From positions 1,860,001-1,924,000 of the forward strand of contig NZ_AP024702.1 of the NCBI RefSeq assembly GCF_037076345.1: 64,000 nucleotides of DNA, read 5' to 3'. The position numbers and the translations under genes are program-made. Below, in pieces: positions 25,067 to 59,275 of this stretch. Position 1 is the first letter of the stretch, and the number at the start of each line of letters is the position of its first letter. The DNA is from Haloferula helveola (GTDB lineage: Bacteria > Verrucomicrobiota > Verrucomicrobiia > Verrucomicrobiales > Akkermansiaceae). Below the pieces are notes generated by a model that saw nothing but the letters and a program-made list of their open reading frames with translations, had not been told where the DNA came from and searched no databases.

Positions 25067-28000
25067 CTAATCTGACGAGGTTCGGCTGAATTGAATCCAA
25101 ACCCCCGGCGGATCGCTTTTGGGATCAAGCTCGCTCACCTCCAGAACTTTCACTCGGTCGCCCTCCTGAAGCCTCCCAATTGGCGTGCCTTGATCCCACT
25201 TTCCATTCTCGCCGAGCGATACGCTATCGCGGATATTCATCGTTGCCTCAGCTATGACTATCATCCCTCGTTCCGGAATCGCCGTGCGCTCACCCGATTC
25301 GGGACGGAACGACTGGGCCCGCAGCATTGGCGCCTCGACATCGGGGTCCAACCAACCATAAAGCGACCAACCAACAGGCTCTGAATCAAGCCCGATTTCC
25401 TGGTCCCCAGTTAGGTCCCATAGCTGCACCCCACCATCAAAGCTTGCAGTCGCAATACGGTCCCCCGAAGTATCGAAGGCTATAGCGGTAATCCGTCTGG
25501 AGTGTCCGCGCAGGACATACTTGGCTTGGTCTTCCCCGTCGTACCAGATCCTCGCCGTCGCATCCGAACTACCTGAAAGCAACTTCGTTCCGTCCGGGCT
25601 GTAAGCAATGTGCCGAACTTCTCCCTGATGCCCAGTGAGACGTCTCTCCATTTTCCCGGTGGCGCTATCCCAGACGCGGATAGTCTGGTCACCACTCGCT
25701 GTCGCAATCTTGCCCTCCCTCGGATGAAAAGCGACTTGAAAAACCCTGCCCTCATGCCCTTTGAGACTATACACCTTAGCTCCCGTTTCGACATTCCATA
25801 CAGCTATCGTGCCATCATCGGCACCAGCAGTGGCAGCGAGCAATCCGTCGGGACTGAAAACGCCGCTCGGAACGGATCCTCCAGTGCTCAACTCAATGGG
25901 AATACCATCACTTTCGGGAGTCCATATGATGGATCTATTTCCGGATGTGGAGGCAATAACCCGCCTCCCGAAGGGATCGAATGATGCTGAAGTGACCATC
26001 GCATCAAGCGATGCGGTCCGCCACTGCTTCAGATTACCCGCATCCCAAATCTGGACAGTCTGATCATTGCTGGCCGATAGAATGCGAGAACCATTGGGGT
26101 GATAGCATACACTGGTAATCGCATCTTTGTGCCCTTCATACGCTCGGGTCGTCTCGGCGACCAGATCGCGAACTCTAACCGTCGAGCCGCTGCTGCCCGC
26201 CACGAGCTGATTTGGCTCAGCTAGAGGACTGAACGCGATGCAATTCACCCCATTGCTGCTACTGCCTTGGAACTCGGTCAACTGCTCTCCTTCCGCAGAC
26301 CAGATTCGTACCCAGTTGTCCAGTCCAGCGCTCGCAAGGCGACCATCCTTTGAGAATGCAATAGCCGTAATTGCGTCATTGCTTGCAGCAAGTGATTTAA
26401 CCAGAGTCGGCGCTTTCGGATCGGCTACCACATCCTCTGGAGCCCGAGAAGTCTGGGCGATCAGATCACTGCTTGTTTTGGCGAGCGTTTCAACCTGCTT
26501 AGTCCCGTTGTTGGCAAGATCCTTGGTCGCGATCACTCGCTCCTCAGAGTCTCTCAATTTCCTTTCCTGGTCGGCGGTTAGCGTCGATTCTGAGTCCCTC
26601 AGCACATCCTGGATGTCGCTGAGCACTTTAGCTTGATCCGCTGCAATCGCTTCAAAGTTTGCCCGCGCGCGGTTGGCTTCATCGAGCTGCTCCGTGAGCT
26701 TGGCGCTCACTTGCTCACTCTCTTGCAGCTTACTCTCGAGTTCCTCGGCGGTCGCTGCCAGCTCGTCCACTTTCCTCTCGGTTTCAGCTCGAGCGTTCCG
26801 TTCCGACTCCGCGGCGGCCTCGGCAGCGGCCTTCGCAATCTCGGCGTCCTCTCTTGCCTCAATCGCTTCGCTTGCCTCAAAGTTTGCTCGCTTGGTCTCT
26901 TTGTTTGCTCGATGAGCGTTACTAAGAGCCCACCCAGCTAGTCCTAGCGCAACCACCGCCGCGAAACCTAGGATCCGATTCTGGACTTTTCGTGCCTTCT
27001 CCCGGTCAGCAGCACGCTCGTCGCCTTGCTGTTGCATCAGCTCTTTAACCCGCTGGTCGTGCACTCGCTTGCTCGAAAGAGCCGAAAGCTGTTCGACCCG
27101 CCACCGATAGACATCAGCAGCCAGCGAATCGTGAGCGACCTCAAATCGACCATCATCAGGATCACGCTGGTCGTCGAATGGAAGCTGGGTGATCAACCGC
27201 ACCTCTGTGAAGCGACTCAGTAGTTCAACCATCTCAGCGGTCGAAGGAGGCTCGATGTTGTCTTGGGTCAGAGGCTCCTCGATCTCCCTCACAAGCTCCG
27301 ATGCGATCCACGGGAACTTCTGGCTACGCGACACCAAGAAGCGGCAAGCCTCGATAAGCCAGCGTTGCTCATTTGACGAGCCGACGCGATCGGCCAAGCT
27401 CTTGTCGACGAATGTGGAACGAACGCCTTGCGAGTTGCCAAGAGTCGTGAAGGTGTCTTCTGTCAGAAGGGCACCCGCGGGATCACAAATCCAATCAGGA
27501 TCTCCATGCAACGCGTCGACAATCCAGATTTGTTCAAGACTCAATTGGAGAAATGGTGTCTCGTAGCGAGAATCGACACCGGCCCTAACGAGTTGACGAA
27601 CTTTCAGCCCTGCATCACCAACAATCGCATCCACAAGTCCAGGCTCCGCCTCGAATTTACCCTGATGGTCTTCCGTCCACCGCCTCAAGGATTCGCCGAT
27701 AACCTTGCGGACTCCCGCCTCATCAAGAAACTGGATGCGCAGAGTCGAATCAAACAGACCCGGAATCAGTCCCTTGAAGCAGTCCAATCGCGACAGGAAG
27801 TCCTCCCGCAAACTCAAAACGACATTGACCGGTGTTCCCGGATCATTCAACAGCGCGATGAGGCATGCGGCGGTCTTGATCCCGGAGGCGGCTTCCTCCG
27901 GAAGATCATCAAATGAAGGTTCCGGCTCTCGCATGCGCGAGGCCAGATCGAGCAATTTGGCAGGCGTAAGCTGCGCAATCTGCGGAAACCGAATGAACAA

Positions 28001-28456
28001 GTCCTCGAACTGATCTAAGACCAGAACCAGTGATTGGGCGGAAGCCAGAGACAAGTTCCGCCCTTTCTTCGAATCCTCTGCATGGCAAGCGGGAAACCAG
28101 TGACGCGGGAACTTCAGCCCCTCGGACGATGGGAGTGCCTCCACCCGCATGCACAGCGACCGCCAAGGGTCGGTCGCCCATTCGTCCCGGAGTAACAGAA
28201 CCGCTGGCGGCGGGGTACCACAGAAGCTCGCATCGGCATCATCGATTCTGTCGCCATGCCTTTCCAATTCGGGGATCAGACCCGCGCACAATACCGACGA
28301 CTTACCGCAGCCCGATGGCCCATAGACGATCGTGTGTCGTCGGACCCGCGCGTTTGCCACAGCAAGCCTCACTTCACGATCTCGACCGCAGAAGTAACGT
28401 CGCGACTCCCTCGTGTATGGAGCTAGGCCTACAAATGGTGAAGCCAATGGTTTCAC
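25067..28456 (-). CDS. Membrane-anchored STAND NTPase with WD40 repeats (defence candidate)
   Basis: 1129 residues from the GTG at 28456, 5 nt after the stop of the SIR2-like gene. The opening SPFVGLAPYTRESRRYFCGRDRE is the nSTAND1-type signature. Walker A GPSGCGKS is at 46-53 and Walker B LVLVLDQFED near 143-152. A helical winged-helix-like region ends around residue 480. One transmembrane helix (ILGFAAVVALGLAGWAL, ~490-512) leads into a coiled coil rich in Ala and Glu, then about eight WD40 blades (VRIW, VQIWD, IRVWD, VQLWD endings) and an SH3-like tail. STAND proteins with sensor repeats switch on an effector, here probably the SIR2 partner. The WD40 propeller and the helix suggest sensing at the membrane. 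Confidence 0.88.
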   Translation of the reverse strand: MKPLASPFVGLAPYTRESRRYFCGRDREVRLAVANARVRRHTIVYGPSGCGKSSVLCAGLIPELERHGDRIDDADASFCGTPPPAVLLLRDEWATDPWRSLCMRVEALPSSEGLKFPRHWFPACHAEDSKKGRNLSLASAQSLVLVLDQFEDLFIRFPQIAQLTPAKLLDLASRMREPEPSFDDLPEEAASGIKTAACLIALLNDPGTPVNVVLSLREDFLSRLDCFKGLIPGLFDSTLRIQFLDEAGVRKVIGESLRRWTEDHQGKFEAEPGLVDAIVGDAGLKVRQLVRAGVDSRYETPFLQLSLEQIWIVDALHGDPDWICDPAGALLTEDTFTTLGNSQGVRSTFVDKSLADRVGSSNEQRWLIEACRFLVSRSQKFPWIASELVREIEEPLTQDNIEPPSTAEMVELLSRFTEVRLITQLPFDDQRDPDDGRFEVAHDSLAADVYRWRVEQLSALSSKRVHDQRVKELMQQQGDERAADREKARKVQNRILGFAAVVALGLAGWALSNAHRANKETKRANFEASEAIEAREDAEIAKAAAEAAAESERNARAETERKVDELAATAEELESKLQESEQVSAKLTEQLDEANRARANFEAIAADQAKVLSDIQDVLRDSESTLTADQERKLRDSEERVIATKDLANNGTKQVETLAKTSSDLIAQTSRAPEDVVADPKAPTLVKSLAASNDAITAIAFSKDGRLASAGLDNWVRIWSAEGEQLTEFQGSSSNGVNCIAFSPLAEPNQLVAGSSGSTVRVRDLVAETTRAYEGHKDAITSVCYHPNGSRILSASNDQTVQIWDAGNLKQWRTASLDAMVTSASFDPFGRRVIASTSGNRSIIWTPESDGIPIELSTGGSVPSGVFSPDGLLAATAGADDGTIAVWNVETGAKVYSLKGHEGRVFQVAFHPREGKIATASGDQTIRVWDSATGKMERRLTGHQGEVRHIAYSPDGTKLLSGSSDATARIWYDGEDQAKYVLRGHSRRITAIAFDTSGDRIATASFDGGVQLWDLTGDQEIGLDSEPVGWSLYGWLDPDVEAPMLRAQSFRPESGERTAIPERGMIVIAEATMNIRDSVSLGENGKWDQGTPIGRLQEGDRVKVLEVSELDPKSDPPGVWIQFSRTSSD

Positions 28457-28461
28457 GTCGA

Positions 28462-29610
28462 TCAGAGATACTGGTTCAGTTGTTTGGCATACTCGGCGCC
28501 ATCCTGATTGAACAAATCAATCGTTGCAGAACCGTCCGAAGCAGATTCCCACCGATCAATATCTGCTTGCGAAGGGTCTTTCTGAATTGCCCAGTTGTAT
28601 AGGTTCGGAACGCCTCGCCGGGCCCAGAGATTCTGGCAAATCGCCAGTATGTTCCAGTCACCGAGTCCGTACCCGACAAATAGGAAGTGCACCTCCTTTA
28701 ACCTATCCTCAAGCGTGGTGGGAAACGGTGTCTTCGTCGAGACAGTCCTCAGAAACTGGATGTAATCATTTTGACTGATGACAAAACTCGACGACTCGAA
28801 GCCATCCGGTGATACGGTCCCGTGTATTTTTACTACCAGAGTCCGGGCTTTGTCTTCGGGTTCGATCGAAGGGTAGCCGCGTTGCTGATCCGAGCCGATG
28901 GGGAGCCCATCGTACTCAGCTAGTGCGGTAATAGGAGTCTCATCGCGCATGACTCCAGCAGGCGTTTTCAATCTTCGGGCCTCATAATACTCGTGGGCGT
29001 TTCTCCAGTGATACAACCACACCGGGTTGGCAACTGTTGGTGCCCGATAGTAAACCACGTCGAAAGGTTCTCCAGCCGCTGCCAACGCGGACTCCATAAC
29101 CGTGTCGTAGTTCGTCGTGATGAAGATCGATCCACGGTTGCGCTCTGACTTCGAGGGCAACTTTGCAAGCACGTCGTGCACCAAGGTCGGCGCATAGTCG
29201 CGCTCAAAAATTCGCTGGAGCTCTAACGGGAGATTGAGCTTGCCTCTCGCACTGGTCTGGATGTGTTGACATACCTGAGCGAGGTCCGCTTCCAGCACAC
29301 CTCGGACCGACTTGACAAAGTCATGGCGGATCGGGCACGAGTTTCCAGCACCCGCCGCTACGCCATTCTGGGGAATGGGGACGCCCGCGCACTCCGGAAC
29401 CTCCAGCTGAGAAGGGAATCCTGACGCTTGAGCAAGGTAGTGGGATAATTCTCTCCCCGTAGGCAGGTATTCAGCTTCAGGGCGCCAGGATCTTCCTGCG
29501 GGTTGCTGCGCGTAGTTCACTCCGGCACCGAGGAATACTGCAATACGACCTCTTTTGGCTGCATCTGCCACAACCTCAAAATGGGGGGGGGTAGGTGCCT
29601 CGGCTTTCAT
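28462..29610 (-). CDS. SIR2-like NAD-binding effector (defence candidate)
   Basis: 382 residues starting at ATG 29610. SIR2_2-type features: FLGAGVN at 26-32 (NAD-binding loop), TTNYDTVMESAL near 164 (Asn/Asp of the active site), VKIHGTV near 257 (catalytic His) and LFVGYGLGDWN near 308. These match SIR2 domains of antiphage proteins that destroy NAD+, rather than protein deacylases; no zinc-binding Cys set is visible. It is followed after 5 nt by the STAND-WD40 gene, so the pair is probably one operon with sensor and effector on separate chains. Upstream is a long gene-poor stretch. Confidence 0.88.
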   Translation of the reverse strand: MKAEAPTPPHFEVVADAAKRGRIAVFLGAGVNYAQQPAGRSWRPEAEYLPTGRELSHYLAQASGFPSQLEVPECAGVPIPQNGVAAGAGNSCPIRHDFVKSVRGVLEADLAQVCQHIQTSARGKLNLPLELQRIFERDYAPTLVHDVLAKLPSKSERNRGSIFITTNYDTVMESALAAAGEPFDVVYYRAPTVANPVWLYHWRNAHEYYEARRLKTPAGVMRDETPITALAEYDGLPIGSDQQRGYPSIEPEDKARTLVVKIHGTVSPDGFESSSFVISQNDYIQFLRTVSTKTPFPTTLEDRLKEVHFLFVGYGLGDWNILAICQNLWARRGVPNLYNWAIQKDPSQADIDRWESASDGSATIDLFNQDGAEYAKQLNQYL

Positions 29611-50825: not shown

Positions 50826-52196
50826 ATGTCACAGCTCACTTCATTTTCGGACATTGACGGCGTGCCTTTTCACTACGCCCGACCTCCCGTTGCCCCGTAC
50901 GGATCAAGAGGCAAGCCCCATGTCTTCCGGTGCGATGCCCGTCTCCTCCCTGCTCTAACGGACGCTGTTCGTGAACTCTCTGAAGTATGCCCCCTCGGAA
51001 AGCCGCAACTAATCACCTCGGCAGGCACCTTCGTGAATAAGCCCGGCCAGCATGGCAAGGGCCTCGCGGTGGATATCGACGCTATTTTTTGGCCCGAAAG
51101 GGAATTCGTCACGAAAGAGTTCCCAATGGATCCAACCTTTTATCTGTCGATAGAGTGCATCTTTCGCAGGTATTTCGGACTCGGTTTGAATTATCTCTAC
51201 AATTCCGCCCACCACGACCACTACCATCTCGATTTGGGGCGCCCTGTGGACTTCGTAACGAGTTCCCGCTCGTATACCCTGTTCCTCCAGGGCGTCCTGA
51301 CCCATATTCACGGGCACGAGGTTGTGATCGACGGGCAATGGGGGCCTCAGACCGAACAGGCAACCGAACAGACGCTCAAGGATCTGGGCTCCACCGGCAA
51401 GATCACCACCCCCGCCACCTGGAAGCGCTTTCTGCTGGAAAGTGCCAAGATCGGGTTCGGAACCTCCAGTTCCCCCGGGAATTCCGCCGCCCACCAAATC
51501 GAAGTACTAAGCTCCGTCGTCGAACATCTTGGGATCGACGGTGATGACTGGCAGATGCTGAGGGGGAGTCTCGACGCTCTTCTTGACACACCTGAGGTCA
51601 CCCGGCTGCTGGAAGACGATTCCACTGAAGAGACAGTCCGTCTGGGGATCTGCAAGAAGATCGTCGACTTCGAGGCACGCCGCAACAACAAGGGCAAGAT
51701 CATCGTTTACAAGCTGCCTTCCGGGGACGGTGGCGGCACCTACGAGATCGCCGGCATTAACGAGAAGTATCATCCGGAGATGGCTGCGAAGTTGAAGCGG
51801 ATGATCGAGACCCAGAAGAACCCAGACCGGGCGGAGGCGCTGGCGGTCATTTACATCGCGACCTACACCGACGCGGCGGCCCGCTGGTCTGTTAACTACG
51901 GAGTCGAGTCCTACCTGCGGGATTCGATGTGGAACCGAGGGCCGGGTGGCGCCGCCAAGATCCTCCAACTGGCCTTGGGGTTCAAGAAGAGCGACGTCGA
52001 CGGCCTGGTCGGGCCGCAGACCCTGGGCGCTCTTGCCACGGCCGAAGCGAAGCCTGTCGCCTTTCTCGCCGAACTTCGGGCTGCACGGGAACGGTATGAA
52101 CGCGAGTATGTGAAACGAGACGAAACCAGCAAGTTCTGGAAAGGTCTGGTCAACCGCTGGGACAAGGCGCTCGCGTTCTCGCGGAGCCTTGCCTGA
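50826..52196 (+). CDS. Muralytic enzyme: M15-type peptidase, PG-binding, GH108-like domains
   Basis: 456 residues without a signal peptide. Residues ~30-140 are an M15/extensin-like peptidase with H76-x6-D83 (GQHGKGLAVDID) and H132-x-H134 (HHDHYHLDLG), the zinc ligands of D,D- or L,D-peptidases. Residues ~145-190 (HEVVIDGQWGPQTEQATEQTL) are a peptidoglycan-binding helix bundle. From ~270 the sequence fits GH108/TtsA lysozymes: IVDFEARR...DGGGTYEIAGINEKYHP, then WNRGPGGAAKILQLALG...VDGLVGPQTLGAL and KFWKGLVNRWDKAL, the PG_binding_3 part. Lack of a leader is endolysin-like: it would need a transport route or membrane damage to reach the wall. It is the first gene of the cassette operon. Confidence 0.8.
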   Translation: MSQLTSFSDIDGVPFHYARPPVAPYGSRGKPHVFRCDARLLPALTDAVRELSEVCPLGKPQLITSAGTFVNKPGQHGKGLAVDIDAIFWPEREFVTKEFPMDPTFYLSIECIFRRYFGLGLNYLYNSAHHDHYHLDLGRPVDFVTSSRSYTLFLQGVLTHIHGHEVVIDGQWGPQTEQATEQTLKDLGSTGKITTPATWKRFLLESAKIGFGTSSSPGNSAAHQIEVLSSVVEHLGIDGDDWQMLRGSLDALLDTPEVTRLLEDDSTEETVRLGICKKIVDFEARRNNKGKIIVYKLPSGDGGGTYEIAGINEKYHPEMAAKLKRMIETQKNPDRAEALAVIYIATYTDAAARWSVNYGVESYLRDSMWNRGPGGAAKILQLALGFKKSDVDGLVGPQTLGALATAEAKPVAFLAELRAARERYEREYVKRDETSKFWKGLVNRWDKALAFSRSLA

Positions 52197-52283
52197 GGGC
52201 TGCCTGAACTTACGCCTTCCGCCGCGGGCCCGATGCGCCTGCGCCCCTTCGAGACCTCGTTCCCTCCCGAAGTAACAACCATC

Positions 52284-55094
52284 ATGAGTTTCAGCCTGAC
52301 CCTTGCCTCCGCACTCGCCCTTGCAAACGGCATCATCCGCATCGGGCGGGAGATCGACCTCATCGCCGCCGCCAAGGTCGCCCGGGAGGACGCGCTCTCC
52401 CTCCCGATTCCGACAGCGACCAACGTCACGCCGGCGAACGTGCAGGAGTTCCTCGATTTCCTCGTTGAAGACGAGGACCTTCACGACCTCGGAACGAAAC
52501 AGGATCGCGAAGACATCCGCGAGCTCGTGAAAGCGGAGAACGGGTTCTCGGGCGAGGAACTCGTTACGGCCTACAAACGCCACTACGCTGTCTTCGCACT
52601 GATGCTTCGGCATCGGTGGCAAGCCCGCCTCGATGATCCCGGGGACGCGAGAGCGATCGTCGTCGGCAACCTGACTTCGGAGGACCAGGGCTACATCGAC
52701 TGGGTGCGCAAGCATCATCCGGCATGGATCAATGAGCCCGAGAGCATGCGAGCCGTTTTCCGCCTCAGCGCAACCGGCGGCGACTCCGTCGACAGGAACA
52801 AGGAAACGGTCTGGAGACTGACGAAGCTTCTGCTCGATCTCCTCGCGGATTTCGGGGCCAGCAATGCCGGACTGATTACCAAAGACGCGAAGCTTCAGGT
52901 GATTGTGGAGAAGGTTTTGGTCAGTTTCGGAGATGCCAATGTACACGAAGGCAATCTGAGCGCCAAAGACGTGCTCCGGGTTGGATTCAGCTCCACTCTC
53001 TCCGGAGTGCTGGATGCACGGGACGCGCTGGACCTCGACAATGCCTGGCTTGAAGAATTTCTGGGTGCGGTTGCATCACTCAGGGACGAGCTGGACGGCG
53101 ACGAAGGGATCGGCTTCGACACTTTCGTCCTGAGCCTCTTCCAAGGCAAAGGCTATCCCCGTCTGGTGGCCGTGCTTCTCGAGACGGCAGCCGGACAAGC
53201 CGGAGGGGGTGCCGGCGCAGGGCACCGTGCTGAGATCAAGAGGCTCAGTGCCACTTATCTGAAGCAAGTGGCCGGTCTGCTGAAGTCGTGCGAGGACCAG
53301 GGCCAAGGCGCGCTCAGGGATTTCGTCCGCCACCGTTGGGGCGATCTGCTCCGGGGCGCGTTCTCGAGCATCAACACGCATGCGGACGAACTACTCGGCG
53401 GGGCAGGCTCCTCACTGGCGAGCCGAGTGCTCCAAAGCGTGCTGCACCAACTTTCATCAAGTCCTGACTCGGCTTTCCTTCGCAGTGGTTCCTCGGATCT
53501 GGTCGCTTCGCTCGCGGACGCGGCGGTGACCGCCGTGGTGGAGAACAAAGGCCTCATAGAAGCAAAGATCGACGAGCCGTGGTTCAGGGAGTTGGTCGGG
53601 CACGCGGCGACCGTCTTGGGCAACCAAGGGCTTCAAAAGACGCTGACCGCGGATGGTCTCGCGTCACTGACCCGGGAGGTGATCCACACGACAGCACGCG
53701 CGGCTGCTCTCAACCCCTCGCTATTGGACGGCGCCGTCGGCGAAAGCTGGCTCCGCCAGATCGCTCCGGCCATCGTCGTCGCGATCACCGATCCCGGTTT
53801 GCAGAGCACACTGGACGCGGACGGTTTGAAGCGTGTCGCAATCGCGGTGGCCGACGCCGCAGCCTCCGTGTTTGCCAATGATCCGTCGCTCATACAGGAC
53901 GGGATCTCGGAAACTTGGCTCAGTGCGGTGGTCCAAGGCGCAGTCGGTGGCCTTGGAACCAGCGGGGTGGCTGTCCTGCTCGACAAGGAAGGGGCGACCG
54001 CGTGGATCGAGGGAGTGCTCCGCAGTGGCGCCACGGCTTTGTCGGAGGATCCTTCAATGGCCGGCACCATCGACGAGTCATGGCTGCGCCTGCTCGTGCA
54101 GGCAGTCGGCGAGGCAGTGGTTGCCACACCGTCAGGCACCCGCCTCGGATCCGACAACCTGCGGGAGATAGGGGTCCACTACTTCGAAGTGGTCCTCGGT
54201 CACTTCGCCACCAATTCCGCCGAGGTAACCGCGGGCATCGGAGACGGACGGGTCCGGGCAGCCCTTGAGGCATTGCTTGCAGCCGCCTCTTCGGATGACG
54301 TCGTGAATCACTTCACTGCCGAAGGGTTGCGGAGCCTGATCGGTCTGACGATCAGCGAGTTGGCGGATCGCCCGGAGTTCTTCCTCGAGGAAGACGTCCA
54401 TCGGGGCGTCGCCGAGCTTGTAGGTAGAGTGACGAAAGCCGTCGGAGACAGCATACAGTCCAAGATCAGCGCAGAAGCACTCGCAAGCGTAGTACTCAGA
54501 AGCGCGCTGCAGGCGGTAGCTGCCGACCCTTCGATCATCGATCCCGACTATTCGAGAACCATCGCCGCCGTTGCGACCTGTGTCGCAGGCGCGCTGGATG
54601 GAACGCCGTTCTCGGAAGTGACCGTCCGGGCCGTCGCCGAAGCCGCGGCGCTCGACCTCCTCGAAAACCAATCGCTGCTGACTTCGGGGAACGGAAGCGT
54701 GGCGGTCGCCTTGCTCAAGTCGACCATCGATGCCATCCGCGAGACCACCGCCGGGGAGGCCGAACCCGCGCGAATCGCGCGCCGGATCATCGCTCCGATT
54801 CTGCCCGAACTCACGAGCGCGGTAGTCCGGGCAGTCGCCGCCAAGGGGCAGCAGCTCCTGTCGGGTCTCGATCAGGATGCGGCCCGGTCACTCATCGCCC
54901 AATCACTGGGGCCTTTGATCTCAGCGACGTTGTCCGGGATCCTCCGCCGGATTGGAGATGGTTTCTCCTCATCCGACCTTCCGGTGGTTCTGGAAACGGT
55001 CGCGGGCGAGTGGGCCTCCGGCGCCGTCTTCCCGGCGGATGCGCAGGCACTTGTCGCCAAAATCGAAGAACGTCTCGAAATCCTCGCAGCATGA
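52284..55094 (+). CDS. Large tandem helical-repeat protein, unknown function
   Basis: 936 residues from ATG 52284; ATG 52233 (17 codons earlier) is possible. Residues ~1-370 are helical without known motifs. From about 400 to 800 there are some eight repeats of 50-58 residues with the pattern DPSLI-x-x-x-I-x-E-x-WL ... L-x-x-L-x-A-D-GL-x-x-x-x-x-V-x-x-A-x-x-A-L-A-x, for example NPSLLDGAVGESWLRQIAP followed by LDADGLKRVAIAVADAA. Later units are more degenerate. It has no signal peptide, no transmembrane helix and almost no cysteine. Such solenoid repeats usually bind protein or form filaments. It sits 87 bp after the muralytic gene and 22 bp before the lipoprotein gene. Confidence 0.75.
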   Translation: MSFSLTLASALALANGIIRIGREIDLIAAAKVAREDALSLPIPTATNVTPANVQEFLDFLVEDEDLHDLGTKQDREDIRELVKAENGFSGEELVTAYKRHYAVFALMLRHRWQARLDDPGDARAIVVGNLTSEDQGYIDWVRKHHPAWINEPESMRAVFRLSATGGDSVDRNKETVWRLTKLLLDLLADFGASNAGLITKDAKLQVIVEKVLVSFGDANVHEGNLSAKDVLRVGFSSTLSGVLDARDALDLDNAWLEEFLGAVASLRDELDGDEGIGFDTFVLSLFQGKGYPRLVAVLLETAAGQAGGGAGAGHRAEIKRLSATYLKQVAGLLKSCEDQGQGALRDFVRHRWGDLLRGAFSSINTHADELLGGAGSSLASRVLQSVLHQLSSSPDSAFLRSGSSDLVASLADAAVTAVVENKGLIEAKIDEPWFRELVGHAATVLGNQGLQKTLTADGLASLTREVIHTTARAAALNPSLLDGAVGESWLRQIAPAIVVAITDPGLQSTLDADGLKRVAIAVADAAASVFANDPSLIQDGISETWLSAVVQGAVGGLGTSGVAVLLDKEGATAWIEGVLRSGATALSEDPSMAGTIDESWLRLLVQAVGEAVVATPSGTRLGSDNLREIGVHYFEVVLGHFATNSAEVTAGIGDGRVRAALEALLAAASSDDVVNHFTAEGLRSLIGLTISELADRPEFFLEEDVHRGVAELVGRVTKAVGDSIQSKISAEALASVVLRSALQAVAADPSIIDPDYSRTIAAVATCVAGALDGTPFSEVTVRAVAEAAALDLLENQSLLTSGNGSVAVALLKSTIDAIRETTAGEAEPARIARRIIAPILPELTSAVVRAVAAKGQQLLSGLDQDAARSLIAQSLGPLISATLSGILRRIGDGFSSSDLPVVLETVAGEWASGAVFPADAQALVAKIEERLEILAA

Positions 55095-55116
55095 GAGGGC
55101 AATCCATCAGCCGACC

Positions 55117-55977
55117 ATGAAACGAATCCTTTCCACACGTCATCTCCTCGGGATTGTGGCGACCGCCGCCCTGGCCGTCCAGGGGTGTGCCACGCAAACC
55201 GACGTCAAACGCATTGTAGCCGAAGCGAACGCGGCAAACATTGCCTCGGTCGAAACGCTAACCGGCCAGCCCTACTTCCCGGTCGCTGGCAAGGCGGAGG
55301 GCGATAAAACCGCGGCATCGATCGCTGGAAGGCAGGAAGATGCCGAGTTCCGCTTGAGGCGGATGATCGCCTCACAACCCGACCCCGCTATCAGCGGCCC
55401 CCTGCAGTTCCGGCTCGCAATCCTCCATACGGTCCGAAAGGAGCCGATCAGTGCCCGCGCCGCTTGGAACTCCGTCCCGCTCGGAACCCTCGACAGTCGG
55501 GACCGCATTCTCTACCGGTCAAGGGAGCCGCTCGTGCTCTGGTATCAGGCATGTGACAAACCCACGGCGCTGAAAGCGGCTTCCGACTCGATCATTGGCA
55601 GTCCGCCGATCGCTCCGTCCGAATCCGGTTTCGATTCGACCTACCTCGGCATGCTCGACGCAGGAGTCGGCGACGCGATCCGCGACAGGAATTCGGGGCT
55701 CGCATTCTATCTCTCCACGATCTTCGCGGACATGACGGTGCAACTCTTTGAGTCCGATCGACACCCGCAAGCCGATGCGCGCTGGGTCGAAACCTTCCAA
55801 CGGGCCAACTCCAGGATGCTACAAGTCCACCGGATGCCCGAAACCCGCAACCTACAACCCGGCACACCTGAAGCGGAATACCGGCGATTCCACATGGACC
55901 GGGTCGGCCGACGCCTTTTGGGAAACAAGCACCGCTTGGGAATCGATATCGGCTGGACCGACTCCGACAAATTGTGA
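55117..55977 (+). CDS. Lipoprotein of unknown function
   Basis: 286 residues from ATG 55117, chosen over 54952 because it starts a lipoprotein signal, MKRILSTRHLLGIVATAALAVQGC, with a lipobox-like sequence ending in Cys 24; the upstream frame overlaps the helical-repeat gene. The mature part is helical (AEFRLRRMIASQPDPAISGPLQFRLAILHTVRKEPISARAAW), suggestive of TPR-like packing, but no family is recognised. It lies between the solenoid protein and a membrane protein in the cassette operon and is probably an envelope component of the same system. Confidence 0.72.
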   Translation: MKRILSTRHLLGIVATAALAVQGCATQTDVKRIVAEANAANIASVETLTGQPYFPVAGKAEGDKTAASIAGRQEDAEFRLRRMIASQPDPAISGPLQFRLAILHTVRKEPISARAAWNSVPLGTLDSRDRILYRSREPLVLWYQACDKPTALKAASDSIIGSPPIAPSESGFDSTYLGMLDAGVGDAIRDRNSGLAFYLSTIFADMTVQLFESDRHPQADARWVETFQRANSRMLQVHRMPETRNLQPGTPEAEYRRFHMDRVGRRLLGNKHRLGIDIGWTDSDKL

Positions 55978-56067
55978 TCGTGGCACACACCGAAAGAATC
56001 GGTCCAAGCGACTCCAGGCGGCTCCAAATCCGCACCGACGCATCAATCCCTCCAACCTACCCCGACC

Positions 56068-56949
56068 ATGCCCAAGACACCGAAACCCCCTCCCCCCGAT
56101 CCCTCTCCTGAACCCCGCGACGAGAGCCGCTTCTGGAAAGGGACCGACCCGCTCCTGATCACGGGGTGGATGGTCATGTTCTATCTGTTCTTCGTCGGAC
56201 TCGTTTCCGCGATTCTCGTGACGATCAATTTCCCGGGCCCTGCGGTCACAGACGGAGAGGACGCCAAAGTACTCAACAAGAGCTTTCACTTCCTCGTCCA
56301 CAAGGCGCCCTTGCAATCCAACGGAACGCTGTTCCTTTTCCTCGCGTTCTTTTCCGGTGTTGCCGGGAGCTTCATTCACGCAGCCCAGTCGCTGGCCAGC
56401 TATCTGGGGAACGAGTCCTTCAAGCGATCCTGGATTCCCTGGTATCTGCTCCGGCCGTGGATCGGTGGAGCACTCGGCTTCGCGGTGTTCGTCGTGTTCA
56501 GTGCCGGACTGGTCGGTGCCAGCGCGATGTCGGATGGCGCGATCAACCACTATGGCATCATCGCGCTCGGTTTTCTGGGCGGCTGGTTCTCCAAGACAAC
56601 CAGCGACAAGCTGCAGGAGGTTTTCGAGACGCTCTTCAAGACCAACGCCGATGCGCAGAGGAATGACAAGTTGGACAACGTGCAGCCCGAGATCGAGAGT
56701 TGCGATCCCTTGCCGGTGCCGAAGAACGCCACGAAATTGCGGATCAAGGGCCGGGGTTTTCAGGAAGGAGCCAAGGCGATCATCGACGGCAAGGAACTGA
56801 CGATCAGCTTCTTTTCCGATGACAAGTTGACGATCGAACTGAGCAACCTCGACCGACCCGCCAGCCCGAAAACCCTACATCTTCACATCGAGAACCCGAA
56901 GGGCTCGGAACGACTCTCAAAGCCGTTCAAGATTCCCTTCGAGGCGTAG
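56068..56949 (+). CDS. Four-helix membrane protein with C-terminal TIG-like domain
   Basis: 293 residues. A proline-rich start (MPKTPKPPPPDPSPEPRDES) precedes TM1 (LLITGWMVMFYLFFVGLVSAILV, ~29-51), a soluble loop, TM2 (LFLFLAFFSGVAGSFIHAA, ~87-106), TM3 (WIGGALGFAVFVVFSAGLVGA, ~131-151) and TM4 (HYGIIALGFLGGWFS). The C-terminal ~85 residues (VPKNATKLRIKGRGFQEGAKAIIDGKELTISFFSDDKLTIELSNLD) have the strand pattern of an IPT/TIG beta domain. It is probably an inner-membrane partner in the cassette, perhaps a channel or an anchor; no known effector family is recognised. Confidence 0.72.
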   Translation: MPKTPKPPPPDPSPEPRDESRFWKGTDPLLITGWMVMFYLFFVGLVSAILVTINFPGPAVTDGEDAKVLNKSFHFLVHKAPLQSNGTLFLFLAFFSGVAGSFIHAAQSLASYLGNESFKRSWIPWYLLRPWIGGALGFAVFVVFSAGLVGASAMSDGAINHYGIIALGFLGGWFSKTTSDKLQEVFETLFKTNADAQRNDKLDNVQPEIESCDPLPVPKNATKLRIKGRGFQEGAKAIIDGKELTISFFSDDKLTIELSNLDRPASPKTLHLHIENPKGSERLSKPFKIPFEA

Positions 56950-57001
56950 CCTGCTCCGGACGACACCCCGAATTGCACCCCTCCCGGATTTCCGACGACC
57001 G

Positions 57002-59275
57002 ATGAGACGACGTACCCCCGTCCGCATCTATGTGCTCTGGCACAAAAGTTTCGCGGAGGGACTCCCTTTGGCGAGGCACATCTATCACTGGTTCCGGTTG
57101 CCAAGTGGGGAAGGAATTCCCGTCTACTTCAGGTGCGCGGAGAATCCGTTCGGTGAGAGTTTCCCTGAAATCCGGGAGGAGGACTGCGACCACAACATCA
57201 TTATCCCGCTGGTAGAGCCCAACATGGTGGCCTCCATGCCTTGGCGAAGGAAGATCGAGAAGCTGGCCAACACCGCCAGCGACTCGGAGGCGGGGGACTG
57301 GCAGGGAGCCCGCTGCCACCTCCTCCCGATCGCCCTGCATGACACCGCCTATCAAATGCCGTCAGCGGTCCGGCGCCTGAACTTCATCCGCAAGGTGGGG
57401 CCCTCAGGAAACGCACCGGACGAGGTGCTGATGAGCCGCTTGACCGAGGCGCTTTGCCTCCTGCTACGGGGGATCGCCAGCCCGGGCGTCACTGATCCGA
57501 TCAAGATATTCCTCAGTCACGCCAAAGCCGACGGCACGGATGTCCCGAAAGAGATCAAGAGCTTCATCCAGAACGAAACCCAGGCGCATACCTTCTTCGA
57601 CGAGAACGATATCGCGTATGGCCATGACTTCGCCAAGGTCATCGAGAAAGCTCTCCAGACCGAGTCAGCCGGCCTTCTGGTCGTGCAGGGCGACCATTAC
57701 GCCGACCGCCCGTGGTGCCGGAAGGAGATCCGGGACTTTCTGGAGCCGAGGAGGATTTCGGAATCAGGAGAAGAAGCAGGCCGTCCCGCATTGTTCTCCG
57801 TGATGCCCTCGGTCGTGGTGAGCAATTTCGAAGGCAACAAGGTCGCGCGGACGATACCGGAGCTCGGTCATGCGCCATCGGTGCAGTGGAAACCGCAGGC
57901 CGCCCGGTCCGCCGTCGTGACCCTGTTACGGGAGATCCTCTTTTCCAATTTCTACCGCCTTCTGGCGCGCCGGGAGCGGTCCGGTTTCCCGGACAGCGAC
58001 GGTCCACGCAGGCTCCTCGTCAACCGTCCGCCCGATCCGGTAATGGTCGAGCAACTCCTGCAGTTGGCCAAGGTGGATCGCAACCACCCGAAGGGAGTGA
58101 CCATCCATCATCCCGGTCACGGGCTCACGAGCGTCGAGCTTGAGGGACTGCAGGCGCTGTATGGAAACTTCGGTTTCCATGCCTTCGGCGCACGAATCGA
58201 GGAACCGGCATCCGTCGGCGGCGGTAACGATTCCGGGAAGGCCGGAGTCTTCGCAGGCAGGGTCCTCGCGATCTCGGCAGGCAATGCCTGCGATATCCTG
58301 AAGTCCGGGTTCAGCGACGACCACACCGTGGAGCTGCTGACCGCCATCCTGCATCCACTCTTCAAGAAAGACATATCCCTGCTCTACGGAGGAGGGCTCC
58401 CGAAGTGGGATGACCCCGATAAGCCGTGGATCTCGAAGGTGAACTATACCCACACTTTCCTCGGTCTGTTGCTCGCGGAACGCGACAAGACCGATGGAAA
58501 TCCATCCGGTGAACCAGGACTGAAGGCAGACACCCTTCCTTCCCGACTCTTCAATCTCAGTGCTTGGCCGCACTCCCTCGATTTCACCATCGAAGACGAG
58601 GCGCGCTGGGTGAACACATGCTCGTTTCTTTGCGTTACCCAAGGAATGGCAGGCATTCCGGCCGACGAAATTCTGGGGCCGGAGCACGTCGAGGAGGAAC
58701 ATCGGCGACAGAAGATCCTGAACACCGCGGTTTGTCTCACCGCGATGCGCCGCAGGCGCTGCGGTGATTTCACCTGTGACACCCCCGAACGGGAGAACTT
58801 CGAGTTCCAGCCGATTGCTCACCTCTTTGTCGGAGGCAAGCTCCGCAGGTATTCGGGAATGATTCCCGGTGTTTGGGAGGAGATGCTCCATGCCTACCTG
58901 GCGGAGCGCCCCTGCTTTGTCGTTCGAGCCACCCGCGGCGCGGCCGGGCGTCTTGGGGAGTGGTTGCTCAATCCACCCGTCGACCGCCCCGTCGAGCTCA
59001 GCGTCGCCTATCAGGCGCGCCAGTCTGGGGATCCGGAAGTCTACCGCTGGCTCGCTGACCAATTGGACGATGCCTCTGACCGCCTTGGTCCCACGCAGGC
59101 TTTTGACCAGCTGTGGCAATTGATTCAGGCGCGCCACGACTCCTCCTTGTCTGAGGTCCTTCGAAACAAACTCAGCGACGAAGAGAATGAGGATCTACTC
59201 AGATCCGGTGACTTTGGCGAGATCGCCAGATTGATTGGCAAAGGCTTGGAAAGGCTGGCCGAGCCCGGAAGATAA
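57002..59275 (+). CDS. TIR-TIR-SLOG-like signalling protein
   Basis: 757 residues. Residues ~7-105 are a TIR-like fold lacking the catalytic Glu pattern (RIYVLWHKSFAEGLPLARHIYHWF ... CDHNIIIPLVEPNM). Residues ~165-290 are a full TIR: PIKIFLSHAKADG, TFFDENDIAYGHDFAKVIEKAL, LLVVQGDHYADRPWCRKEIRDF, with Glu near 241 where TIR NADases carry the catalytic Glu. From ~330 the sequence is Rossmann-like with SLOG features: ISLLYGGGLPKWDD (~460) and IAHLFVGGKLRRYSGMIPGVWEEMLHAYLAERPCFVVRATRGAAGRL (~605-650), like the G-x-x-PG-x-x-EE and GG-FGGaa motifs of nucleotide-sensing SLOG domains. This suggests NAD-derived signal production and sensing in one chain. Confidence 0.8.
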   Translation: MRRRTPVRIYVLWHKSFAEGLPLARHIYHWFRLPSGEGIPVYFRCAENPFGESFPEIREEDCDHNIIIPLVEPNMVASMPWRRKIEKLANTASDSEAGDWQGARCHLLPIALHDTAYQMPSAVRRLNFIRKVGPSGNAPDEVLMSRLTEALCLLLRGIASPGVTDPIKIFLSHAKADGTDVPKEIKSFIQNETQAHTFFDENDIAYGHDFAKVIEKALQTESAGLLVVQGDHYADRPWCRKEIRDFLEPRRISESGEEAGRPALFSVMPSVVVSNFEGNKVARTIPELGHAPSVQWKPQAARSAVVTLLREILFSNFYRLLARRERSGFPDSDGPRRLLVNRPPDPVMVEQLLQLAKVDRNHPKGVTIHHPGHGLTSVELEGLQALYGNFGFHAFGARIEEPASVGGGNDSGKAGVFAGRVLAISAGNACDILKSGFSDDHTVELLTAILHPLFKKDISLLYGGGLPKWDDPDKPWISKVNYTHTFLGLLLAERDKTDGNPSGEPGLKADTLPSRLFNLSAWPHSLDFTIEDEARWVNTCSFLCVTQGMAGIPADEILGPEHVEEEHRRQKILNTAVCLTAMRRRRCGDFTCDTPERENFEFQPIAHLFVGGKLRRYSGMIPGVWEEMLHAYLAERPCFVVRATRGAAGRLGEWLLNPPVDRPVELSVAYQARQSGDPEVYRWLADQLDDASDRLGPTQAFDQLWQLIQARHDSSLSEVLRNKLSDEENEDLLRSGDFGEIARLIGKGLERLAEPGR

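Follow-up and report, generated by a model that had tools for sequence, protein, structure and literature searches.

A pseudo-TIR/TIR/SLOG fusion protein from Haloferula helveola and its relatives resemble components of Thoeris phage-defense systems

Results

P0001 is the last gene of a co-directional run

We analyzed a 64,000-nucleotide stretch of the Haloferula helveola genome (the window) that contains P0001, a protein in which a pseudo-TIR, a TIR and a SLOG domain are fused. Five co-directional genes separated by short gaps span 50826-59275, and P0001 is the last of these (Table 1). Its open reading frame is intact, with an ATG start, 757 codons and a stop at 59275. The 953-aa protein encoded upstream had no relative in the 96 other genomes searched. 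Within the window, no ThsB-like gene and no lipase directly adjoins P0001.

Several other genes in the window drew our attention. A gene for an nSTAND1-WD40 protein adjoins one for a SIR2_2 protein, and the third-position GC of this pair is below that of its surroundings. This is probably another NADase-type defense pair. Third-position GC is also low in a gene whose product joins an N-terminal TIR_2 domain to a C-terminal methyltransferase domain. The large protein encoded downstream of P0001 unusually combines a POTRA-like repeat with a region of weak similarity to rotamases.

Table 1. Features of P0001, its surroundings and selected relatives. Locations are window coordinates unless preceded by a locus (L) or genome (G) label.
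Feature	Location	Strand	Evidence or remark
nSTAND1-WD40 protein (1129 aa) and SIR2_2 protein (382 aa)	25067-29610	-	adjoining pair
TIR_2-methyltransferase protein, 685 aa	37337-39394	-	
PG_binding_3 protein, cell-wall enzyme-like, 456 aa	50826..52196	+	Pfam; first of the co-directional run
Orphan protein, 953 aa	52233..55094	+	no family (Pfam)
Protein with lipoprotein-like N-terminus, 287 aa	55114..55977	+	start codon uncertain; likely shares the operon
Protein with three predicted membrane segments and a CoaZ/IPT-like C-terminal repeat, 293 aa	56068..56949	+	52 bases upstream of P0001
P0001, pseudo-TIR/TIR/SLOG fusion protein, 757 aa	57002..59275	+	ORF, Pfam, AlphaFold2, structure comparison
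TIR1, residues 1-158	57002..57475	+	TIR fold without catalytic Glu; fold and conservation
TIR2, residues 165-316	57494..57949	+	canonical TIR; Pfam, profile, structure comparison
WCRKE of TIR2, residues 238-242	57713..57727	+	catalytic motif by alignment and conservation
Extra alpha/beta segment between TIR2 and SLOG, residues 331-415	57992..58246	+	AlphaFold2 secondary structure
SLOG domain (LD_cluster2), residues 419-732	58256..59197	+	Pfam, structure comparison
YGG, residues 462-464	58385..58393	+	Y 48/50, G 45/50, G 50/50 homologs
R583 of SLOG	58748..58750	+	invariant, 49/49 homologs
GGK, residues 611-613	58832..58840	+	K/R at 613 in 41/49 homologs
PGVWEE, residues 622-627	58865..58882	+	G623 49/49; E626 is E/D in 62/62 homologs
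POTRA-like/rotamase-like protein, 1217 aa	60123-63776	+	
TIR-membrane protein (467 aa) and Tle1-AWE lipase (521 aa)	L025 3321-6936; G000 about 1927.3-1930.9 kb		adjoining pair just past the window
Related proteins directly adjoining a TIR-TIR-SLOG gene	L021 8836-10140; L048 5799-7193		L021: DUF4062 fused to N-acetylmuramoyl-L-alanine amidase
AWE domain copies	L057 7879-8319; L066 9348-9878; L071 5168-5686; L074 12406-12933		alignment A4; alone or fused to patatin, Tle1-like lipase or TIR-TIR
TIR-STALD fusion, 345 aa	L119 967-2004		another genome of the phylum; TIR joined to ThsA-type SLOG
LD_cluster2 SLOG-patatin fusion, 538 aa	L131 4696-6312		inside a type III Thoeris locus

P0001 contains two TIR folds and a SLOG domain

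Pfam placed a TIR_2 domain at residues 169-248 (38.5 bits against a curated cut-off of 28; E 1.9e-9) and LD_cluster2, "SLOG cluster2" (PF18163), at residues 419-732 (73.6 bits against a cut-off of 25.3; E 2.5e-20). No Pfam family exceeded its cut-off in residues 1-150. P0001 had no Pfam match to a SIR2 domain and none to the STALD type of SLOG (PF18185), which also had no match elsewhere in the genome. Matches to DO-GTPase2 and DUF5789 fell under the cut-off and were discarded.

The AlphaFold2 model of the whole protein, made with 64 homologs, had a mean pLDDT of 92.1 and a pTM of 0.93. TIR1 was assigned by structure. Folded by itself (pLDDT 92.7), TIR1 had a TIR fold, matching RPS4 (4c6t) with a Z of 12.8 over 136 residues. 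Residues 166-309 of TIR2 matched the TIR of SARM1 (9mw2; Z 14.4, 2.1 A, 120 residues), residues 166-314 matched SPARTA (Z 14.7), and the TIR2 profile found the TIR 3h16 among PDB sequences (E 5e-9). By sequence-profile comparison, nothing significant was found between TIR1 and TIR2 or between SLOG and either TIR.

We found that the C-terminal region has a SLOG fold. Residues 420-754 matched the SLOG of EcThsA (Z 13.8, 189 residues) and BcThsA bound to gcADPR (Z 13.5), and gave a longer alignment with MHR1/2 of TRPM2 (Z 12.9, 233 residues). The initial annotation had proposed a SLOG-like module here and had named a C-terminus of some other fold as the case that would count against it; that case was examined, and the fold was that of SLOG. 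However, the annotation had begun the module at residue 330, and the domain actually starts near residue 419. The intervening alpha/beta segment was given no identity by any tool and was barely covered in the structure comparison. When the SLOG profile was compared with PDB sequences, all matches, LCAT for example, were at chance level and were rejected.

The active site is kept in TIR2 and lost in TIR1

The two TIR domains differ in their catalytic residues, as had been supposed when the first was called degenerate and the second complete with WCRKE. In TIR2, E242 and C239 were each invariant (52/52 homologs), the Trp of the motif was W in 49, and E242 aligned with the WxxxE Glu region of two solved TIR NADases, AbTIR and 3h16. 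In TIR1, W81 was kept in 51 of 52 homologs. The residue four positions on was L, V, I, A, F, M or T in all 52, nearly always aliphatic, and Glu in none. Judged from these alignments, the active site of TIR2 is intact and that of TIR1 has been lost, and TIR2 is apparently an active NAD-cutting enzyme.

LOG enzymes have a catalytic Arg and a catalytic Glu, and the invariant Arg and PGxxEE of the P0001 SLOG domain resemble these. The YGG, GGK and PGVWEE motifs, which had been pointed out from the sequence of the C-terminal region, are indeed present. To judge from conservation, the kept residues of this domain appear to resemble those used for ligand contact in ThsA or for catalysis in LOG enzymes. 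As a lead, R583, K613 and E626 recall R371, K388 and E403, the ligand residues of BcThsA (PMC10022894).

These residues might also indicate that the SLOG domain is itself an enzyme, similar to a LOG phosphoribohydrolase, that cleaves a nucleotide and thereby completes a signal begun by TIR2 or clears a signal. Both enzymatic and sensor SLOG domains have been proposed (PMC9503650). We consider an enzymatic SLOG quite improbable, because the strongest structural matches among those listed, the SLOG of ThsA and MHR1/2 of TRPM2, are both ligand sensors.

TIR-TIR and SLOG are repeatedly fused and split

P0001 has a patchy distribution and was present in 6 of 97 related genomes. When 84,980 species genomes were scanned with a closer subset of the family alignment as query, 65 loci were found, in Verrucomicrobiota, Planctomycetota, Pseudomonadota, Myxococcota, Acidobacteriota, Bacteroidota and other phyla, and plasmid records added members from Cyanobacteriota and Bacillota. 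The pseudo-TIR/TIR/SLOG layout was kept in approximately 40 fused proteins from several phyla. In roughly one quarter to one third of the loci, TIR-TIR and SLOG were encoded by two adjacent or overlapping genes. Split copies were found on a Klebsiella plasmid, on a Pseudomonas plasmid and in 12 of 5,426 complete E. coli genomes.

The family tree contained four changes between fused and split forms, at least three of which are forced by well-supported branches. This interconversion indicates that TIR-TIR and SLOG act together, and it is the strongest evidence that they do. It upholds the earlier view of TIR and SLOG as parts of a single working unit.

The genes upstream of P0001 (cell-wall enzyme-like, lipoprotein-like and membrane proteins) include no known defense genes, which would fit a regulatory or cell-envelope stress protein with no part in immunity. 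We regard that as very improbable. The patchy distribution argues against it, as do plasmid copies of the family that adjoin integrases or sit inside a CRISPR type III-B locus, a relative (L023) in a type I restriction-like setting, and the ThsB-like partners described below. The setting of L023 was judged from its sequence only. On the plasmid from Aureispira (L124), the fusion gene lies between CRISPR type III-B genes, among three more TIR genes and a nucleoside 2-deoxyribosyltransferase-like gene. Relatives of P0001 were not found in viral contigs or phage records. None of the PADLOC models describes P0001, and their matches were confined to its TIR domain.

ThsB-like TIR genes and AWE lipases are enriched beside the family

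We counted partner genes in 69 loci among ORFs picked by a simple procedure from at most 10 kb of flanking sequence, and used shuffling to estimate random placement. Separate TIR/ThsB-like genes (58 ORFs) occurred in 38 of the 69 loci. Within 400 bp of the family there were 26 such ORFs, compared to a random mean of 5.7 and a maximum of 14 in 2,000 shuffles. The gene order was ThsB_TIR, ThsB_TIR, TIR-TIR, SLOG in E. coli and ThsB_TIR, TIR-TIR, SLOG in P. veronii. The four E. coli genes span L126 6807-9982.

A second kind of partner was a patatin-like or Tle1-like lipase, mostly with a helical domain that contains the motif AWELYVELATR ("AWE", alignment A4). Of 25 lipase/AWE ORFs, 19 were within 400 bp of the family (2.9 expected at random; highest shuffle 8). 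AWE also occurred as a small stand-alone gene and fused to TIR-TIR (L054); the stand-alone copies in L057 and L066 had no Pfam match. Since AWE is found attached to either lipase or TIR-TIR, it probably links the two. Within the available flanking sequence, 29 of the 69 loci had neither a lipase/AWE ORF nor an adjacent TIR gene.

The only AWE protein of the 5.68-Mb H. helveola genome is a Tle1-AWE lipase encoded 10 kb downstream of P0001. It is 57% identical to the lipase of L046, which is encoded 162 bp from a P0001 homolog of 54% identity. By simple arithmetic, the chance of a single AWE gene landing within 12 kb of P0001 is about 0.4%.

We also noticed that cell-wall enzymes recur near the family: PG_binding_3 in the window, PG_binding_1/SH3 in L018, and the related proteins of L021 (a DUF4062-amidase) and L048. 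A recent paper describes DUF4062 as a TIR-like NADase (PMC13174449).

The partners bear on two other ways of reading P0001. First, P0001 could be a self-contained producer and sensor, in which TIR-TIR senses infection, an ADPR-type signal is made by TIR2, and the attached SLOG reads that signal and alerts an effector, e.g., a lipase. Both modules are on one polypeptide, the lipase partners could serve as executioner, and 45 of the 69 loci, together with P0001 itself, lack a separate TIR gene within 400 bp (24 have one). Nevertheless, we find this reading doubtful. Separate TIR producers, strongly enriched beside the family, would be redundant. In addition, the effector would itself have to sense the signal, as the type III Thoeris SLOG-patatin could, and the scanned AWE lipases had no SLOG match of their own.

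Second, TIR2 might act purely as an executioner by draining cellular NAD+, with SLOG and the lipases as independent or additional layers and no signal made by P0001. Other TIR effectors work in this way, and SPARTA and Cat1 are among the nearest folds to the P0001 TIR domains. We give this little credence, because SLOG and TIR-TIR have remained together although they fused and split repeatedly, and because the linked lipases point to a further effector.

Discussion

The P0001 family is widespread and little studied, and it looks related to the Thoeris phage-defense systems. Our proposal, which we judge about as apt to be right as wrong, is that P0001 serves a Thoeris-like (type III-like) phage-defense system as a TIR enzyme gated by a signal. 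The ligand, the direction of control, the NADase activity and the antiphage role of P0001 are all what we infer. The SLOG domain would bind an ADP-ribose-type signal, and the pseudo-TIR would be a structural or oligomerization partner. Signal on SLOG would switch on TIR2, which would then cleave NAD+. The outcome could be NAD+ depletion, more signal, or both, and abortive infection. Where a lipase is among the partners, the response might reach the envelope by means of this patatin or Tle1-like phospholipase.

Control of TIR2 by SLOG seems most likely because of the ThsA-like domain order, the intact site of TIR2 and the frequent signal-making TIR neighbors. The separate ThsB-like TIR next to many relatives suggests that the protein could receive a signal made elsewhere, with its fused TIR in the gated role that SIR2 has in ThsA. 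On the other side, P0001 itself adjoins no ThsB-like gene or lipase, many loci have neither partner, and the cut-offs for ThcB4 and ThcA were missed.

A bolder version, which we think unlikely, is that P0001 both reads and writes an ADP-ribose-type messenger. Messenger on SLOG would turn on the attached TIR, this positive feedback would amplify the signal, and AWE, as a new adaptor domain, would relay it to trigger an envelope phospholipase. If true, this would make the family a separate Thoeris type. A 2025 preprint by Yirmiya (doi 10.64898/2025.12.03.692087) reportedly defines Thoeris types up to VI, and the architecture of P0001 may already be described there.

The family makes it testable whether a TIR enzyme can be controlled by a TIR-type messenger. 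It provides natural fused and split versions of one signaling unit, some of them in E. coli, so that laboratory strains are usable. The AWE-sharing lipase partners suggest envelope lipases as an output of TIR/SLOG signaling besides NAD+ depletion.

Comparison with known systems

MHR1/2 of TRPM2 shares the SLOG-type fold with P0001, and its structures include ADP-ribose. In contrast to P0001, TRPM2 is a eukaryotic ion channel regulator without a TIR.

ThsA of type I Thoeris, like P0001, has an NADase module before a C-terminal SLOG of the same fold, and ThsB-like TIR genes adjoin many relatives of P0001. However, P0001 has TIR2 where ThsA has SIR2, and an extra pseudo-TIR. The SLOG of ThsA is STALD, whereas that of P0001 is LD_cluster2.

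TIR-SLOG associations were described by Burroughs and colleagues (2015), as related in citing papers (PMC9503650, PMC7159879). In these accounts, TIR produces NAD-derived signals and SLOG reads or processes them, which is similar to the roles considered here. STALD is the Pfam "Sir2- and TIR-associating SLOG", and a TIR-STALD fusion occurs in L119. The accessible parts of the TIR-SLOG literature contain no description of the pseudo-TIR/TIR layout, of the LD_cluster2 SLOG or of AWE lipases as partners.

Type III Thoeris (ThcB4 and ThcA) is the nearest known system. In it, ThcB4 (380 aa, with an extra N-terminal domain and a TIR at 133-229) is directly followed by the SLOG protein ThcA, and several ThsB-type TIR genes adjoin the two. 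The genuine ThcA locus L131 contains three TIR genes, an LD_cluster2 SLOG-patatin, ThcB4, ThcA and another TIR gene. The plan of an extra N-terminal domain and TIR, then SLOG, is common to both; it is fused in P0001 and divided between adjacent genes in L131 and the split relatives. The N-terminus of ThcB4 and TIR1 shared a short matching stretch that was not significant.

The differences are that P0001 is a single fused chain, that its SLOG is of cluster 2 whereas that of ThcA is of cluster 3, and that the lipases of the P0001 family carry AWE, not SLOG. P0001 scored 21.9 bits against the ThcB4 model (NF058526; cut-off 220) and had no match at E 0.1 to the ThcA model (NF058525; cut-off 110 bits). 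The E. coli split relatives scored 42.1 bits for ThcB4 (220 needed) and 20.3 bits for ThcA (110 needed). Because P0001 misses both curated cut-offs and its SLOG is of another cluster, we did not file it as type III Thoeris. The fusion of an LD_cluster2 SLOG to a patatin inside a type III locus indicates that LD_cluster2 behaves as a swappable receptor module.
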